Below, in pieces: positions 5,023 through 59,963 of a stretch of 64,000 nucleotides of DNA. Origin of the DNA: a virus; the IMG/VR virus record IMGVR_UViG_3300028883_000992, positions 1 to 64,000 of that record, one strand, 5' to 3'. A model generated the notes under the pieces. The model was not told the origin of the DNA and searched no databases. It saw nothing but the letters and a program-made list of their open reading frames with translations. Made by a program: the position numbers and the translations under genes. Position 1 is the stretch's first letter. Each line of letters opens with the position of its first letter.

Positions 5023-5561
5023 AGTATTATGATAAACAGAAACATAGGCTTGACAAGGGGATTTGTTGGTATAATAAATGCCCGTATCAACCTAATTTTG
5101 TTGGCTTTATGATTTATGGATATAGCAACCTTAAAATCCATTATAGGCTTGCTCAAATAGGTATAAGACACAATCAAGCATACTGGTTTGAGGCTCATAC
5201 AGCCTATTGTGGCGTTGTGCTCTCGTTCCCCTACTTATTTAGTGCCGAGATTCAACAGCAAGCCAAAGAGACTCTAAAAGAGTGGTATCCTTACATTTAC
5301 CAACATCTTTTCAATTGTCGTTTAAAGCCAAGTGATTCACATATTTTAAAAAGGGATAGGTTCTATGAAGAACACAAAGATTCATATATAGGTATATGTT
5401 CATGGAGAATATTTCATAACAATATGCCTACAAACAGATTAAAAGTATTAGCTTTCAGACCATTAGATCAAGACTATCAATATTTTATTACAGATGATTC
5501 ATATTATGATTCATCTAAAATAATGGAAGGTAAACCTGTAAATGATTTTCAAACATGGTGA
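5007..5561 (+). CDS. Hypothetical protein rich in aromatic residues, 184 aa
   Basis: The start is preceded by AGGAG. The protein is unusually rich in Tyr, Trp, His and Phe (for example CWYNKCPYQPNF and AYWFEAHTAYCG) and has five cysteines, so a metal-binding or redox-sensitive fold is possible. No signal peptide. I do not recognise the family. Confidence 0.8.
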   Translation: MALDLEYYDKQKHRLDKGICWYNKCPYQPNFVGFMIYGYSNLKIHYRLAQIGIRHNQAYWFEAHTAYCGVVLSFPYLFSAEIQQQAKETLKEWYPYIYQHLFNCRLKPSDSHILKRDRFYEEHKDSYIGICSWRIFHNNMPTNRLKVLAFRPLDQDYQYFITDDSYYDSSKIMEGKPVNDFQTW

Positions 5562-5568
5562 AAACAAA

Positions 5569-5847
5569 ATGAAAAATTGCAGTAAAAAACTATTTCAAAA
5601 ATTGAAAACTTGTTATGAAGAGCAGGATTATAACAGTGTTTTACAGATAGAATATGAATTACTGCAAATAAGTTTAAAACAAAGTGCAAGATTAGATATT
5701 AAACTTTGTACTGACCCTCTTGTTTTATTTTCTGGAACACATAATCATCCGTCAGAGATAAGAAAATTAGTTGGTATTCCTGAAGACATATTAAACAAAT
5801 CAAACGCCGCTATGAAATTCATAGCAGAAACAAAGAGGTTAAAATGA
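5569..5847 (+). CDS. Hypothetical protein, 92 aa
   Basis: Start chosen at the ATG behind GGTGAAAAC; an in-frame ATG at 5542 would add nine residues and is also possible. The middle contains LVLFSGTHNHPSEIRKLVG, and the rest is helical. It is coupled to the HicB-like gene by ATGA. No function assigned. Confidence 0.72.
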   Translation: MKNCSKKLFQKLKTCYEEQDYNSVLQIEYELLQISLKQSARLDIKLCTDPLVLFSGTHNHPSEIRKLVGIPEDILNKSNAAMKFIAETKRLK

Positions 5848-6140
5848 CATTAAAAGAACATCTTGAAGCAATATACGATATGAACCTTATTTATATCGAA
5901 GAAGAAGACCAATGGTTGTGTTATTCACCTGATTTAGATTTATATGCTTTTAATGGTATGGGTAACACACCTGAAGAAGCCATAAGTAGATTTAATAAAT
6001 GCAAATCAGAGGTTATGGAATATCTTGATAGTATGAATATACTTATTAGAGAGCCACGTAGAAGAAACACACTTATTAGAGAGCCACGTAGAAGAAACAC
6101 AAATGATCTTACGGAGGATTGGAAATGCAAGTCAGAGTAA
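5844..6140 (+). CDS. HicB-like protein, 98 aa
   Basis: Residues 14-60 have the shape of a HicB antitoxin fold: a strand pair ending in a YSPDLDLYAFNGMGNTPEEA-like segment, then a helix. HicB proteins are partial RNase H folds that usually neutralise a HicA toxin, but no HicA-like gene lies beside it and there is no obvious C-terminal DNA-binding domain. An orphan HicB-type protein in a phage could protect against a host toxin; that is inference. The C-terminus carries a tandem duplication LIREPRRRNT x2. Confidence 0.6.
   Translation: MTLKEHLEAIYDMNLIYIEEEDQWLCYSPDLDLYAFNGMGNTPEEAISRFNKCKSEVMEYLDSMNILIREPRRRNTLIREPRRRNTNDLTEDWKCKSE
6041..6100 (+). repeat. Perfect 30-bp tandem duplication
   Basis: Two identical 30-bp units, 6041-6070 and 6071-6100, lie inside the HicB-like gene and encode the basic decapeptide LIREPRRRNT twice. 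The identity at DNA level suggests a recent slippage or duplication event. Confidence 0.95.
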
Positions 6141-11720: not shown

Positions 11721-12614
11721 ATGGAACAGAAAATTAAAGGTTGGAAAGTATTTAATAGTGATTTATCGTGTGCCCCTAACGGCAAGAAATTTCAATATGA
11801 AGTTGGAAAAACATATGAAGAAAACAATATACGATTGTGTGTCAGAGGTTTTCATTTTCATACAAACCCTGAACACTTATTTCATTATTATAGTTATACA
11901 ACAAATATAAGAGTATGTGAAATAGAAGCATCTGGCGACATAATAAATGGTGATGATAAATCTGTGTGCTCTAAAATAACAATTATTAAAGAACTGTCGC
12001 AACAAGAAATACTGGAGTTAGTAAACACAGGAAAATCAAATTCAGGTATATATAACAGTGGAAACTGTAACAGTGGACGCTATAACAGTGGAAACTATAA
12101 CAGTGGACGCTATAACAGTGGAAACTGTAACAGTGGACACTATAACAGTGGACACTATAACAGTGGAAACTATAACAGTGGAAACTATAACAGTGGACGC
12201 TATAACAGTGGTGACTGTAACGGTGGAAACTGTAACAGTGGTTACTGTAACAGTGGTAACAATAACAGTGGAAACTATAACAGTGGTGACTGTAACAGTG
12301 GATTTTTTAATACAGGTATACCACCATTAAGAATATTTAACAAAGAAACTACAATTGATAGAAATGAAATACAATGGCCTCGCTTTACTTATAATATTAA
12401 CCTAACAGAATGGATAGAAGATGAAGAAAATCCAGAAGGATACTTAAAAACATATAGCTACAAAAAAGCATGGCGTAATGCATGGGAAGCAACAGATTTC
12501 AATGATCGTAAACTTGTTTTAAAACTTCCTAATTGGGATAATGAAATTTTTAAAGAGATAACAGGCATTGACGCGGAGGCTGAAATTGAAGATCAAAAGA
12601 AGTCAAATCAGTAA
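11721..12614 (+). CDS. DUF7666-type protein with pentapeptide-like repeat tail, 297 aa
   Basis: Residues 5-95 (KGWKVFNSDLSC, FQYEVGKTYEE, LCVRGFHFHTNPEHLF, RVCEIEASGDI) match the uncharacterised phage domain I know as DUF7666. Residues about 106-200 are some 18 tandem pentapeptides of the form NSGxx, with x often Asn, Arg, His, Tyr or Cys. Such runs may form a quadrilateral beta-helix like pentapeptide repeat proteins, some of which mimic DNA. The last 90 residues are a soluble domain (QWPRFTYN, YKKAWRNAWE). No enzymatic role is known. Confidence 0.85.
   Translation: MEQKIKGWKVFNSDLSCAPNGKKFQYEVGKTYEENNIRLCVRGFHFHTNPEHLFHYYSYTTNIRVCEIEASGDIINGDDKSVCSKITIIKELSQQEILELVNTGKSNSGIYNSGNCNSGRYNSGNYNSGRYNSGNCNSGHYNSGHYNSGNYNSGNYNSGRYNSGDCNGGNCNSGYCNSGNNNSGNYNSGDCNSGFFNTGIPPLRIFNKETTIDRNEIQWPRFTYNINLTEWIEDEENPEGYLKTYSYKKAWRNAWEATDFNDRKLVLKLPNWDNEIFKEITGIDAEAEIEDQKKSNQ
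12037..12312 (+). repeat. 15-bp tandem repeat array (coding)
   Basis: About 18 imperfect copies of a 15-bp unit close to AACAGTGGAAACTAT lie within the DUF7666-type gene and encode NSGxx pentapeptides. Variation falls mainly at the codons after Gly, which fits selection on a repeated coil rather than neutral expansion. The array also keeps a second frame open without making a credible gene. Confidence 0.95.
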
Positions 12615-15186: not shown

Positions 15187-15257
15187 TGCCGTATAGTGTA
15201 ATGGTAGCATACAAGACTTTGACTCTTGGGGTGTAGGTTCAAATCCTGCTACGGCAG
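15187..15257 (+). tRNA. tRNA-Gln (anticodon TTG)
   Basis: Acceptor stem TGCCGTA/TACGGCA, anticodon stem CAAGA/TCTTG with loop CTTTGAC (anticodon TTG, normal T33), T arm GTAGG-TTCAAAT-CCTGC and discriminator G as usual for Gln. CCA is not encoded. It lies in a + strand operon between protein genes, so it must be processed from the mRNA. Confidence 0.92.
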
Positions 15258-24495: not shown

Positions 24496-25647
24496 ATGAA
24501 AATATTTGAAGGTAAAAGAGTTCATATAAAATCTTGGTGCAATAATCCAGAAGAAGGTGCTATACAACAAGCACTAAATCTATCATCACTACCATTTATA
24601 TTCAAACATGTTTGTCTAATGTCTGATTGCCATGAAGGTTATGGTATGCCAATAGGCGGTGTTATAGCAACAAAAAATATTGTTATACCAAATGCAGTTG
24701 GTGTAGATATTGGTTGTGGCATGCTGTCTGTAGAAACAGATATTGATAATTTAGACAAAGATCAAATAAAATCTATAATGGGTAAAATTAGGGGACTTGT
24801 CCCAGTAGGATTCAACCATCATAAAACTAACCAAGAATGGAATGGATTTAACAATATCCCACTTATTGATGTTATAAGACAGGAAGTTGATAGTGCACGC
24901 AAACAGCTTGGTACATTAGGTGGGGGTAATCATTTTATTGAATTACAAACAGACGGAAACCATATACATTTTATGATTCATAGTGGTTCTCGTAACTTTG
25001 GATATAAGATTGCAAAACATTTTAATGAAGTGGCTACAAAACTATGTCATAGATGGTACTCAAATATCCCTGAAATTAAAGGTGAAGATGGATTAGCGTT
25101 TTTACCTATAGATACAAATGAAGGTCTAACATATTTTACCGCTATGAGTTTTGCTCTTGATTTTGCTCAAGCCAATAGAAACCTAATGGCCGAGAGAGTA
25201 AAAGAAGCCATCAATTCTGTTGTGTCCTGCAATTTTGAAGAGTCAATAAACATTCATCATAACTATGCGAGATTAGAAAATCATTTTAAGCATAATGTTA
25301 TAATACACCGTAAAGGTGCTACTTCAGCTAAAGAAAATGAAATAGGTATCATACCGGGATCACAAGGAAGCTATTCATATATTGTACATGGACTAGGAAA
25401 TCCAGAATCATTTTATTCTTGTTCTCATGGTGCAGGTAGAAAAATGAGTCGTAAAAAAGCAAGGGAAACATTGGAGATTAATCAAGAAACAGAAAAAATG
25501 GGCAACATTGTACATAGCATAAGAAATAAGCAAGACTTAGACGAGGCTCCGGGTGCATATAAAGATATAGATATAGTTATGGAAGAACAACAGGATTTAG
25601 TAGCGATAAAAAAGAAACTCTATCCATTAGGAGTAATAAAGGGGTGA
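24496..25647 (+). CDS. rtcB: RtcB-type RNA ligase, 383 aa
   Basis: RtcB joins 2',3'-cyclic phosphate (via 3'-phosphate) and 5'-OH RNA ends using GTP and Mn2+. Diagnostic motifs: SDCHEGYGMPIGGV (43-56), GVDIGCGM with the metal cysteine (69-76), LGGGNHFIE, HSGSRNFG, HHNYA, RKGATSA and the guanylylated-histidine motif SCSHGAGRKMSR. Length matches short bacterial/phage RtcB proteins. It starts 15 nt after the tRNA-Leu gene and in this genome probably repairs tRNAs cut by host nucleases (inference). Confidence 0.96.
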   Translation: MKIFEGKRVHIKSWCNNPEEGAIQQALNLSSLPFIFKHVCLMSDCHEGYGMPIGGVIATKNIVIPNAVGVDIGCGMLSVETDIDNLDKDQIKSIMGKIRGLVPVGFNHHKTNQEWNGFNNIPLIDVIRQEVDSARKQLGTLGGGNHFIELQTDGNHIHFMIHSGSRNFGYKIAKHFNEVATKLCHRWYSNIPEIKGEDGLAFLPIDTNEGLTYFTAMSFALDFAQANRNLMAERVKEAINSVVSCNFEESINIHHNYARLENHFKHNVIIHRKGATSAKENEIGIIPGSQGSYSYIVHGLGNPESFYSCSHGAGRKMSRKKARETLEINQETEKMGNIVHSIRNKQDLDEAPGAYKDIDIVMEEQQDLVAIKKKLYPLGVIKG

Positions 25648-25736: not shown

Positions 25737-26086
25737 GACATCCTACCCCTACATTAGACATAAAAGAAACAGTAGAATTTTTAACAATTTGTTCACCATT
25801 TGATGAGGGTTTAAAAAGATCGGAAATTACAGTCAGAGACAATAAACTTGTTTTAGATAACAAGACTATTAATAATATAATATGTGATATTTTGGTTGTT
25901 GAAAAAATAGATATTGCACTCATGATGTTTCTTAATAAAATAGGACGTATACAATTTAAAGAAAGGTTAATGGAATTTAGTGACGGTGACACAATAAGTT
26001 TAATGTTTTTTGAATTATATAAACAATATAGTCAGAAATTTAATATCAAAGAATATAATAAAATAGCAAGGGAATACTATAAATGA
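25733..26086 (+). CDS. Hypothetical protein, 117 aa
   Basis: ATGA-coupled on both sides, between RtcB and patatin. Helical C-terminal half, with an N-terminal segment RHPTPTLDIKETVEFL. No motif recognised. Confidence 0.75.
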   Translation: MRHPTPTLDIKETVEFLTICSPFDEGLKRSEITVRDNKLVLDNKTINNIICDILVVEKIDIALMMFLNKIGRIQFKERLMEFSDGDTISLMFFELYKQYSQKFNIKEYNKIAREYYK

Positions 26087-26916
26087 CAGGATTAGTATTA
26101 TCAGGTGGTGGTTCTAAAGGTGCTTTCCAAGTAGGTGCATTAGACTATATCTTAAATCACACTGATATTAAGTTTGATTGCATAGATGGAGTATCAACAG
26201 GATCACTTCAAGGTTCTATGGTAGCTACAGATCAATTTGCATATCTTAAAAATATGTGGCTATCCATCAAAAAAGACAGTGATATCGTAAAACATAGTTG
26301 GTGGAAATTAATGTTCCTAAAATTTCCATATAGTTTCACTGGGTTAGAGGGTTATTTAAAATACGCACTTAAAACCGGATACAAAATACCGTTCTTTTGT
26401 GGAGTTGTTAATCTCGACACCACTAAATATAGAAGTATAAGGAATCCGAATTATAGAGAAATATTGGCATCATGTTCTATACCTGTACTTTTTGAACCTG
26501 TTTACTATTATGAAAAACCATTGGTAGATGGTGGTCTTAGAAATGTAACACCTTTGAAAGATGCTATTGATAGAGGCTGTGACAAAATTATTGTCATAAC
26601 TTGTGGCAATAGAAAAGATGAATTACCCTTCTACCCACAGGAAAAATACAATGTTAAAGATGCGTTATTCCGTACCTTAGATATAATGGTTCATGAGATT
26701 AAATTAAATGACTTTCTGTTTAGAGATATTACTCAAGCAGAGAAGATAAATACATGGGTAGAAAATGGATTTGAAAAATATCGTAAGATAGACATCACAG
26801 TTATAGAGCCTCAACATAAATACACTGTTAATATGGATAGTCTTAAATTTGACCCTACAATAACAGAAGCATTGATGAATCACGGATTTAATCAAGCAAT
26901 GGAGGTATTAAAATGA
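26083..26916 (+). CDS. Patatin-like phospholipase, 277 aa
   Basis: All patatin elements are visible: oxyanion loop SGGGSKGAFQ (7-16), nucleophile elbow GVSTGS (Ser38) and catalytic DGG (149-151). The expected reaction is hydrolysis of acyl ester bonds in phospholipids by a Ser-Asp dyad. No signal peptide, so it is cytosolic. Possible roles are membrane damage at lysis, lipid remodelling or abortive defence against other phages. It lies two genes upstream of a cell-wall amidase, which favours a lysis-related role (inference). Confidence 0.93.
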   Translation: MTGLVLSGGGSKGAFQVGALDYILNHTDIKFDCIDGVSTGSLQGSMVATDQFAYLKNMWLSIKKDSDIVKHSWWKLMFLKFPYSFTGLEGYLKYALKTGYKIPFFCGVVNLDTTKYRSIRNPNYREILASCSIPVLFEPVYYYEKPLVDGGLRNVTPLKDAIDRGCDKIIVITCGNRKDELPFYPQEKYNVKDALFRTLDIMVHEIKLNDFLFRDITQAEKINTWVENGFEKYRKIDITVIEPQHKYTVNMDSLKFDPTITEALMNHGFNQAMEVLK

Positions 26917-27092: not shown

Positions 27093-27408
27093 TTTAGAAA
27101 AACTTAAGGTTATAGATGCTCAATATAACCATGATAATTTTTTTGAATGGGATAAACATAGACAAGAAATATATACATCAATAAAGCGCGGATATATAAT
27201 AGATATAGATTTACTTGAACCGCGACATGTTCAACTTTTTTTAGATATGTGTGAAGATTTCTTTACAAACTTAGGTGAAACCCATATTATTTTTCAGTCT
27301 ATGAAAGGACGTTTGAGAAAAGTAAGAGAATGGGCAGACAGCAGAAGACTTAGATATAAGAAACTCGGCAACAAACATAAAATTCATGTTGGGAGAGTGA
27401 GTGGATAA
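27073..27408 (+). CDS. Hypothetical basic protein, 111 aa
   Basis: Helical and basic, especially near the C-terminus (SMKGRLRKVREWADSRRLRYKKLG), suggesting nucleic-acid binding. It overlaps the amidase GTG start by 8 nt. No family recognised. Confidence 0.75.
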   Translation: MAKKKIDLEKLKVIDAQYNHDNFFEWDKHRQEIYTSIKRGYIIDIDLLEPRHVQLFLDMCEDFFTNLGETHIIFQSMKGRLRKVREWADSRRLRYKKLGNKHKIHVGRVSG

Positions 27409-27985
27409 ATTTCAAGTTATATTTTACAAGGGTGACTACAAAGATCGCCAAGAACAAGCAAACAGAGATGACTGTGACCTATATGTTGAACAGCATTTAA
27501 ATTCTGTAACCGACCCTACAATTGACTATGCCTGTGTAATTACACGCAAGGTTCCAAATACAACAGAAGAAGCATTAGCTAAAACATATTGTGAAATGAT
27601 TCATAATACGTTTGGTAATCAATGTCAAGGCGTTATTAAAGGTGGATTTAACGGCAGGGGGTCAAGAAATATAAGCACTTGCACAATGCCATCACTTCTA
27701 TTGGAACCTCTTTTTATTTCCAATAGACAACATGTAGACTGGCTAATGAATGGATTAGGCATACCTTTATTGGCAGTATGTTTAGCAGATACAATTAAAA
27801 CTTATTACAAATCAGGAACAATAGGATTTAGTGTGGGTCACAAATATAAAACTTCTAATCCAGATGATCGTGGAGCTAAAGTACCGGAATCATATTTGAT
27901 ACCATATTTAAATACATCAATTTATGAATCTGATATTTGTGAATCTATACTTCTCAAGGCAAAAAACATATTGGAGATGAAATGA
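27401..27985 (+). CDS. Amidase_3-like cell-wall hydrolase, apparently circularly permuted, 194 aa
   Basis: The protein contains the elements of zinc N-acetylmuramoyl-L-alanine amidases (Amidase_3), but in rotated order. Residues 14-35 (DRQEQANRDDCDLYVEQHLN) match the usual R..ANxxxADLFVSIHxN segment with zinc His32. Residues 96-108 (MPSLLLEPLFISN) match the catalytic PxxLVExGFxSN segment with Glu102. Normally the protein ends soon after; here it continues with GFSVGHKYKTSNPDDRGA (142-159) and a YESDICESILLKA helix (175-187), which resemble the family's N-terminal DPGHGGxDPGA strand (His147) and Glu helix (Glu176). All four active-site residues can thus be found. Probably the endolysin. GTG start. 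Confidence 0.68.
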   Translation: MDKFQVIFYKGDYKDRQEQANRDDCDLYVEQHLNSVTDPTIDYACVITRKVPNTTEEALAKTYCEMIHNTFGNQCQGVIKGGFNGRGSRNISTCTMPSLLLEPLFISNRQHVDWLMNGLGIPLLAVCLADTIKTYYKSGTIGFSVGHKYKTSNPDDRGAKVPESYLIPYLNTSIYESDICESILLKAKNILEMK

Positions 27986-28053
27986 TTTTAGGTGCTATTT
28001 TACTATTATTTATACTTATATTTTGGTTTATTTGGATTGCTGAAAATGATTGA
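27982..28053 (+). CDS. Tiny membrane peptide next to the amidase, 23 aa
   Basis: ATGA overlap with the amidase stop; GGAG lies 5 nt before the ATG. Encodes a single hydrophobic helix (ILGAILLLFILIFWFIWI) ending AEND. Could be a holin-like or other lysis accessory peptide by position only. Very short, so uncertain. Confidence 0.42.
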   Translation: MILGAILLLFILIFWFIWIAEND

Positions 28054-28315
28054 ATCTTGGGACTATCTTGATAAGCATACATATTGGTATGTATTACTTA
28101 TATACAAAAATAGTAGTGTGTATAAGATATTCCTAAATAAAAACAGTATCAATATAAAAGGCAGTTATCTTGAACAACCAACACCATTAAATGATTTAAT
28201 TAACAGACTTATAAAGTTAGCTTTGATTGATAGCAAATTAATGTCATCATCTAATCTTGTAATACTCCAACAACTTAACGGAGATATAAATGGATTTTTC
28301 GGCAATCAACAATAG
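28046..28315 (+). CDS. Hypothetical protein, 89 aa
   Basis: Start placed at the ATG opening IESWDYLDKHTYW; an in-frame GTG at 27992 would add 18 hydrophobic residues that coincide with the membrane peptide in another frame. Soluble, no motif known. It overlaps the nucleotidyltransferase start by 26 nt. Confidence 0.62.
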   Translation: MIESWDYLDKHTYWYVLLIYKNSSVYKIFLNKNSINIKGSYLEQPTPLNDLINRLIKLALIDSKLMSSSNLVILQQLNGDINGFFGNQQ

Positions 28316-29039
28316 CATAATTTATGCTTACAGGGGCAGTATAGCCCATAATCTATATATCCCACCTGAAGAACCTTTAGGTACAGACGATAAAGACTAC
28401 ATAGGAATATGTATTTCACCTATTAACTATTATACTGGACTTGATAAGTTTGATCAATATGAATATCAAGAAAACGGTGACGATATTATAGTTTATGACA
28501 TTAAAAAAGCATTTAGACTTTTGCTAAACAGTAACCCCAATATATTGTCTATTCTTTGGAACAGACCTGATATGTATATACGCATAGAACCTTTAGGGCA
28601 GAAAATTATTGATAATCGTCATATATTTGCATCCAAAAAAATATATAAGACATTTGTTGGATATGCTCTATCCCAACTAAAGAGGATGAACAAGTCACAA
28701 TATAAGGGTTATATGGGATCAAAAAAAAAGGAATTAGTTGATAAATACGGATTTGATGTAAAAATGGCAAGTCACACAATAAGACTATTAAAATGTGGTA
28801 TAGAATTTTTAGAAACAGGTGAATTTGAAGTTTATCGTAAAAAAGATCGTGAAGAACTTATAGCTATCAAACAAGGTAAATGGAGTTTTGAGGACATAAA
28901 CTTATATGTTAATAATCTTATGTATGATATTGATAGTGCATATAAGCACAGTCAACTACCGCCTCAACCAAACTACAATACTGCAAATGAACTCCTGATG
29001 GACGTACTTGCAGAATACTTTAGAATAGGAGAATTATGA
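28290..29039 (+). CDS. RlaP-type DNA polymerase beta superfamily nucleotidyltransferase, 249 aa
   Basis: The N-terminal signature YRGSIAHNLY (14-23) followed by TDDKDYIGI (32-40) is the GS...DxD active site of pol-beta nucleotidyltransferases of the COG3541/RlaP group. That group was named for association with RNA ligases in RNA repair operons. Asp34 and Asp36 are the likely metal ligands. The helical C-terminal part (residues 105-249) fits the family. The rtcB gene a few genes upstream supports an RNA repair role; substrate and nucleotide remain unknown. Confidence 0.8.
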   Translation: MDFSAINNSIIYAYRGSIAHNLYIPPEEPLGTDDKDYIGICISPINYYTGLDKFDQYEYQENGDDIIVYDIKKAFRLLLNSNPNILSILWNRPDMYIRIEPLGQKIIDNRHIFASKKIYKTFVGYALSQLKRMNKSQYKGYMGSKKKELVDKYGFDVKMASHTIRLLKCGIEFLETGEFEVYRKKDREELIAIKQGKWSFEDINLYVNNLMYDIDSAYKHSQLPPQPNYNTANELLMDVLAEYFRIGEL

Positions 29040-58944: not shown

Positions 58945-59134
58945 TATATACTCCGTTATCTATTATAAATAAATATGTTACAATTTTTTTGCAAACAGGG
59001 CAATAATAATTGAAATGATAGTTTGACTGACCATCCAATTCAGCCACATGTTCCATATTTATAAATTCCAAATTGTGAAATGTATGCTCGTCAACATATG
59101 TAATAAACCTATCTTGCCCTGACATATCTATCAT
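58910..59134 (-). CDS. Small protein with Cys pair, 74 aa
   Basis: MIDMSGQDRF... with YCPVCKKIVTYLF near the C-terminal third, a single CxxC that could join a partner's zinc site. Start chosen at the first ATG of the frame. Overlaps both neighbours (26 and 35 nt). Function unknown. Confidence 0.65.
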   Translation of the reverse strand: MIDMSGQDRFITYVDEHTFHNLEFINMEHVAELDGQSNYHFNYYCPVCKKIVTYLFIIDNGVYNAKSASDDLFG

Positions 59135-59963
59135 AAGGTGTAACAACCCTTCCTACACTAATTTTACGAACTCTGTAGGAATTTATCAAAAATCCACAGC
59201 TTAAAAAAACACTTTCAAAAGCAGACGTAAAAACAAATGATATAGAATATGATAAAAATTCATAAATACGCATAGTAAAATTGAAAAATCTTTCAGTAAA
59301 TGTTAACCCACTAAATACAAATGACACATTATGTTCACTGGTCGCATATGCTCTAAAATTAATATCATAGTTAACTGCTTGGCTGTCATAAACTTTAAAC
59401 ACATTTGAAAAATCTGTACTTACAACATCTTTTACTTTAAAAATGTATGAATAATCATCAGCAGATACATCATATACCCTTAAAATATTATTCCAACTAT
59501 AGTCTGATGATTCATAGACACGATATACTAAACTATAATTACCATAAATAACATCATAAGCACTAAAAATAATATTAAAACCATAATCTAACTGGTGTTT
59601 TATTCCAAATACAAAATTATATTGTGTAGTAGGCTCAAAAGTCTCTAGTATAAAACTATAATTCTCTGACTTGGTATCATAAATTCTTACAATAAATTGA
59701 TAATTAAAATTATCAACAGATTTCTCAGATTGTAAGACAAATGAATAATTATAGTCTTTTGTATCATATGCCTTAAATACCAATGGTATATTAAAAGTAT
59801 CAAATGGATTACGTGACTCTAATACAATAGCAACATTAAATGTATCAACGTCTTTAGCTCTTAATACAAAAGAAAAATTGCTATATATACCATCACCAAA
59901 AGTAGGCTCATGATCCCAAACGTCACCGGGACGAGGTATATGTGAGGGGAATCTAATTACCAT
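59109..59963 (-). CDS. Protein made of about a dozen short beta repeats, 284 aa
   Basis: After residue 20 the sequence repeats every 17-19 residues with the pattern xYxFxxxxRxYDxxxxD (for example NYSFVLQSEKS, NYQFIVRIYDT, NYSLVYRVYES, DYSYIFKVKDV). Aromatic and hydrophobic residues alternate, as in a solenoid or an amyloid-like fibre. I do not know a named family. Between secreted proteins and connector genes, it may be a fibrous virion component. Confidence 0.78.
   Translation of the reverse strand: MVIRFPSHIPRPGDVWDHEPTFGDGIYSNFSFVLRAKDVDTFNVAIVLESRNPFDTFNIPLVFKAYDTKDYNYSFVLQSEKSVDNFNYQFIVRIYDTKSENYSFILETFEPTTQYNFVFGIKHQLDYGFNIIFSAYDVIYGNYSLVYRVYESSDYSWNNILRVYDVSADDYSYIFKVKDVVSTDFSNVFKVYDSQAVNYDINFRAYATSEHNVSFVFSGLTFTERFFNFTMRIYEFLSYSISFVFTSAFESVFLSCGFLINSYRVRKISVGRVVTPYDRYVRAR

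Follow-up and report, generated by a model that had tools for sequence, protein, structure and literature searches.

Predicted circular permutation of an Amidase_3 amidase in a phage and in a clade of homologues with the same order

The gene at positions 27401–27985 on the + strand of the window (the whole 64,000-nt stretch of phage DNA analysed here, part of a virus record of 91,135 bp) very probably codes for a zinc N-acetylmuramoyl-L-alanine amidase that is complete and has the Amidase_3 fold, with its chain opened between α1 and β2 and the C-terminal helix re-joined to β1. Amidase_3 is a main zinc amidase family of phage lysins and bacterial autolysins. The gene has a GTG start and a product of 194 aa, and its assignment is based on the open reading frame, a match to Pfam Amidase_3 (PF01520), a tandem-profile alignment and 12 homologues with the same order. 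The assigned order of elements is β2-α2-β3-β4-α3-β5-β6-α4-β1-α1, with no canonical β1-α1 copy. The permuted protein is homologous to Amidase_3 and is predicted to work alike, departing from it in linear order only.

Motif order and profile matches

The original prediction had read the zinc-amidase signatures of this protein in rotated order, and every motif that it named was found in place: A20-N21...D26-L-Y-V-E-Q-H32-L-N34, M96-P-S-L-L-L-E102-P-L-F-I-S-N108, S144-V-G-H147-K...D156-R-G-A and Y-E176-S-D. It had also held that all four expected active-site residues could be placed; His32, Glu102, His147 and Glu176 indeed align to canonical positions, and are invariant in 12 of the 12 aligned permuted sequences. 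In the canonical Amidase_3 enzyme AmiP, zinc is bound by His17, Glu32 and His85, and the catalytic residue is Glu145 (PMC9929850). By alignment, His147 of the GH motif (codon 27839–27841, +) would be the first zinc-ligand His, equivalent to AmiP His17, Glu176 (27926–27928, +) the zinc-ligand Glu equivalent to Glu32, His32 (27494–27496, +) the second zinc-ligand His equivalent to His85, and Glu102 (27704–27706, +) the catalytic Glu equivalent to Glu145.

Pfam Amidase_3 matches residues 12–117, corresponding to profile positions 55–157 of 174 (E = 1.5e-9), and the score of 38.6 bits lies above the curated cut-off of 27. The N-terminus has no counterpart to the first third of the profile. The Pfam model places the β1-GH strand and the Glu helix N-terminally, an order that the window protein does not follow, and it is therefore filed as a permuted branch rather than as an ordinary Amidase_3 member. 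The same confinement to the β2-to-end part was observed for the Pfam matches of all 12 aligned members. Because a partial match of this kind exceeds the cut-off, members receive an ordinary amidase annotation, as in RefSeq, or might be mistaken for truncated enzymes, and the permutation stays hidden.

Chain order was then analysed with a profile built from 17 canonical Amidase_3 domains (14 from phage enzymes and three with known structure), and with a tandem version in which this profile is written twice. The window protein scored 45.1 bits against the single profile (positions 55–175) and 56.6 bits against the tandem profile, in a single uninterrupted alignment spanning the junction (55–212, equivalent to 55–177 followed by 1–35). 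The C-terminal 59 residues thus add 11.5 bits across the junction, with GH147 paired with the canonical GH, DRGA with D.GA, and E176 with the helix Glu. When these 59 residues were shuffled 3000 times, no shuffle reached the real tandem score, and the best fell 0.4 bit below it. Against the N-half profile, the C-terminal match of the window protein by itself is weak (5.2 bits), and taken singly this protein offers modest rather than overwhelming sequence evidence.

At the family level, a continuous alignment to the tandem profile with a gain of +3.3 to +22.3 bits was observed for 14 of 14 permuted proteins, versus −1.0 to +1.5 bits for 34 canonical proteins. The permuted set also stands out in tandem-profile gain among 116 Amidase_3 ORFs from 144 loci, where just two canonical ORFs gain more than 2.5 bits (3.7 and 4.0), both of them extending upstream in a stop-to-stop reading. 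Comparison by hhalign of the aligned C-terminal segments from 13 homologues with the canonical N-terminal β1-α1 profile gave a probability of 94% and an E-value of 1.1e-7, while the control pairings gave 1.5% (C-segment with the remainder) and 0.8% (N-part with the canonical N-terminus). The tandem gains, together with the hhalign match and its failed control pairings, constitute strong evidence, far beyond chance, for a rotated order in the family. The continuous match to a duplicated profile over the junction, in several homologues, is that of a circularly permuted family.

Predicted structure and proposed mechanism

An AlphaFold2 model computed from a 12-member alignment that included no canonical enzyme has a pLDDT of 92.3 and a pTM of 0.90; the single window sequence gave a pLDDT of 42. 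The model is one compact domain with six strands and the Amidase_3 set of helices, in rotated order (E4–8, H13–22, E27–31, E43–48, H54–71, E74–80, E98–102, H109–116, H120–135, E139–145, H176–192). A Foldseek search returned Amidase_3 catalytic domains as the best PDB matches, namely CwlV (1jwq), AmiC2 (5emi) and a Clostridioides difficile amidase (4rn7), at 2.0–3.3 Å over 124–128 columns; the match to 4rn7 is 2.0 Å over 124 columns. Foldseek preserves chain order in aligning, and the restriction of these matches to about 124 in-order columns, the part in which the order is shared, fits a permutation. The top match among viral structures, BFVD entry A0A646QVT2, covers 197 columns, approximately the whole model, with a TMq of 0.62, compared with about 125 columns for the canonical matches.

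The canonical β2 to C-terminal helix (profile 55–175) is assigned by Pfam, tandem profile and model to residues 1–136 (27401–27808, +), now N-terminal. Residues 136–138 (27806–27814, +), between the end of the model helix at 135 and the start of the strand at 139, are assigned to a short new linker that connects what was the C-terminal helix with what was the first strand. Canonical β1-α1 is assigned to residues 139–194 (27815–27982, +), now C-terminal, from tandem-profile positions 178–212, hhalign and the model elements E139–145 and H176–192. The new termini fall between α1 and β2, which agrees with their original placement between the canonical first helix and the R..AN segment.

AmiP, from Thermus parvatiensis (PDB 7b3n), has six strands with the sheet order β2-β1-β3-β6-β4-β5 (PMC9929850). 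In the model, His32 follows strand 27–31, Glu102 ends strand 98–102, His147 lies two residues past strand 139–145, and Glu176 is the first residue of helix 176–192 (α1); these predicted positions, at the ends of strands and the beginning of a helix, match the canonical placement, with the AmiP order rotated. The closest known counterparts of the window protein are Amidase_3 phage endolysins and prophage amidases such as AmiP and the Vibrio phage PhiImVa-1 amidase (L002), with which it shares the predicted set of strands and helices, the H/E/H zinc-ligand residues and the catalytic Glu, and the motifs IG[FL].VGH...GA...YE and IIFY/VIFY...DL...H.N...LLE..FI.N are common to the permuted family and canonical phage Amidase_3. 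Unlike the canonical phage enzymes, the window protein has β1-α1 at its C-terminus, has its termini between α1 and β2, and has lost the GxE after β4. Both this G.E and the R of DRG are nearly invariant in related canonical phage enzymes and missing here.

In the proposed mechanism, the loop from α1 to β2, the latter an edge strand, would be the site of opening, and the C-terminal helix would enter β1 through about three residues (136–138). Strand β1 would then slot in between β2 and β3, as in canonical enzymes, so that H147, E176 and H32 and the catalytic E102, contributed from both ends of the chain, could meet around one zinc ion and the MurNAc-L-Ala bond could be cut through a zinc-activated water. 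The enzyme is probably active. A natural shift of the strand bearing the first zinc ligand to the other chain end would show that the active site is independent of chain order.

A different account of the partial Pfam match is a truncated Amidase_3 that has lost β1-α1 and gained an unrelated C-terminal tail, leaving the protein catalytically dead or in some other role. Pfam by itself detects just the part from β2 to the end, and the last 59 aa taken alone have no Pfam Amidase_3 match, as would be expected of such a protein; the tail nevertheless matches the canonical N-terminal segment at the family level with the hhalign E-value given above, bears the invariant His147 and Glu176 at the correct secondary-structure positions, and is integrated in the confident model. 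In addition, one homologous pair has a dN/dS below 1, a value based on few changes. Truncation is on these grounds very unlikely, and a complete permuted domain is the preferred reading.

Homologues with the same order and their origin

IMG/VR was scanned with a degenerate DNA pattern in which codons for GH lie 97–127 bases after those for MPxLLLExxFxxN. The pattern matched 24 stretches, five of which encode proteins of permuted order, and two subsequent alignment-driven scans enlarged the set. The expected relatives with the same order thus exist, as 11 further distinct phage proteins (L090, L091, L092, L093, L074, L094, L095, L096, L097, L098 and L099) and one plasmid protein. Identity of the other aligned members to the window protein is 33–42% in the 12-sequence alignment. 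The plasmid member was detected in a tblastn search of plasmids with L090 (42.6% identity over 97%) on pTs485, a 485-kb plasmid of 'Thiodictyon syntrophicum', a purple sulfur bacterium whose complete genome has been published (PMC5944118). Its RefSeq entry, WP_100923257.1, is named N-acetylmuramoyl-L-alanine amidase with the permutation unmentioned; the protein differs from the window protein in being plasmid-borne and in having a C-terminal extension.

No permuted relative was retrieved from viral and genome contigs with the window protein alone as query, nor with a canonical Vibrio amidase or a mixed alignment as query. A pattern with a longer junction gave no additional permuted protein among its matches, and a full-length permuted relative was not found among the INPHARED phages. 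Among relatives identified through DnaE, one carries an Amidase_3 (L032), in canonical order. Two candidates from the phage collection, H72 and H92, were rejected, both being canonical.

The position of the start codon bears on whether the rotated order belongs to the gene itself. A Shine-Dalgarno-like GGGAG (27391–27395, +) lies 5 nt 5' of GTG 27401, and an in-frame TGA directly precedes that codon. An in-frame stop directly before the start was likewise observed in L090 and L094, and in these three members a hidden canonical N-terminal half is therefore excluded. The gene upstream in the window overlaps the start of the amidase by 8 nt, and supply of β1 by a frameshift from it was considered and rejected, as that gene has no GH motif. 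More generally, an assembly, frameshift or annotation artefact could have scrambled the order of a truly canonical gene; the metagenomic derivation of the virus record and the 8-nt overlap would leave room for this, but the order is identical in the 11 other distinct phage proteins and on the plasmid of a bacterium with a complete genome, three members have the stops described above, and no GH motif was found upstream of the amidase ORF in the window. The homologues sharing the order refute the artefact reading, which we regard as extremely improbable. The clade is a real enzyme family, apparently undescribed before.

In a phylogenetic tree, 13 permuted proteins form one branch (support 93/99), which lies on the side of the amidases of Vibrio, Cellulophaga and Fusobacterium phages (support 80/93). 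The permutation in this 13-member clade probably arose once. Permuted proteins usually originate by tandem duplication, fusion and trimming; here, a phage Amidase_3 gene may have been duplicated in tandem and fused in frame, with loss of both outer pieces. A search of the C-terminal tails for a leftover second β2, as a trace of tandem duplication, gave scores not above those of shuffles.

The rotated order recurs in a more distant protein that has an IDPGH motif and is encoded at L057:581–1177 (IMGVR_UViG_3300005300_000013); no other relatives of it were found in IMG/VR. It is placed elsewhere in the tree on a very long branch, and a single origin of the permutation that includes it was not rejected (p-AU = 0.395). 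The wider proposal, that an undescribed permuted Amidase_3 clade spans unrelated phages plus one bacterium or more, and that L057 was permuted independently with a cut at almost the same place, is offered tentatively, as possible and on balance doubtful. If true, it would make the α1-β2 loop a repeatable site for opening the Amidase_3 fold.

A literature search, in which subscription papers were thinly covered, returned no paper in which Amidase_3 is connected with circular permutation and, in keeping with the original prediction, no described permuted member; the permuted cell-wall hydrolases that it met were those of NlpC/P60. In that superfamily, the YaeF/G6R-like and LRAT-like branches are known to be permuted (PMC6403190). 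NlpC/P60 resembles permuted Amidase_3 as a cell-wall hydrolase superfamily with a naturally permuted catalytic domain, and differs from it in comprising cysteine enzymes of an unrelated fold. The permuted Amidase_3 clade provides a natural set of proteins for tests of folding and permutation tolerance.

Gene neighbourhoods and possible role in the phage

The Amidase_3 search gave one match in the 91-kb phage record, and likewise one apiece in 13 further carrier records. As the sole Amidase_3 of the phage, the permuted amidase is most likely its endolysin. No recognisable holin, spanin or lysis cassette adjoins the window gene. A 23-codon ORF at 27982–28053 (+), MILGAILLLFILIFWFIWIAEND, has one hydrophobic segment and a start that overlaps the amidase stop (ATGA), and may encode a translationally coupled small membrane partner. 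The same ORF also overlaps the next start, at 28046.

Neighbouring genes differ among members except in two related pairs, and the permuted gene thus moves between phages. In L074, three small membrane proteins and then the terminase small subunit are encoded after the amidase, a putative lysis-like context, and a weak Rz-like match (E = 0.026) was detected in the neighbourhood of L099. In L094, a Clp protease gene (5399–6001; Pfam E = 4.2e-24) directly precedes the permuted amidase and overlaps its start by 4 nt. The Thiodictyon copy lies among non-phage genes with no evident prophage, so a cellular use is possible and some members may not be endolysins.

An active permuted amidase could also serve outside lysis, as a virion-associated, cell-wall-remodelling or captured cellular enzyme. 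Consistent with this, the window gene has a patatin-like phospholipase and an RlaP-type nucleotidyltransferase as neighbours in place of a recognised holin or spanin, the Thiodictyon copy adjoins a gene for a Germane (GerMN) domain protein, and the L091 copy adjoins a tail assembly chaperone gene. Such a role is nonetheless unlikely for the phage enzyme, given that each carrier record has a single Amidase_3, that the protein has one catalytic domain and neither tail nor signal domains, and that L074 has the lysis-like arrangement; a lysis enzyme is the favoured assignment.

The patatin-like phospholipase gene (26083–26916; Pfam E = 6.7e-24) lies upstream of the amidase with two small genes between, and a phage lipase close to a cell-wall enzyme could assist lysis. 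Just downstream of the amidase is the gene for the RlaP-type RNA-repair nucleotidyltransferase (28290–29039; PF10127, PHROG 388). The ORF at 24496–25647 resembles an RtcB RNA ligase, as judged by eye, and tRNA genes occur in the window at 15187, 23058 and 24398; with the RlaP-type gene, these hint at a tRNA repair set.

Repetitive proteins were also observed. The ORF at 11721–12614 of the window encodes a run of pentapeptide-like repeats of the NSG[NRH]YNSG type, and an overlapping open frame lies within it at 12058–12330 on the + strand. Repeats of about 17 residues (YNIVLRAYETLDSQFS...) make up almost the whole of two proteins, one of 693 aa at L033:455–2536 (record positions 64455–66536) and one of 284 aa at 59109–59963 of the window.
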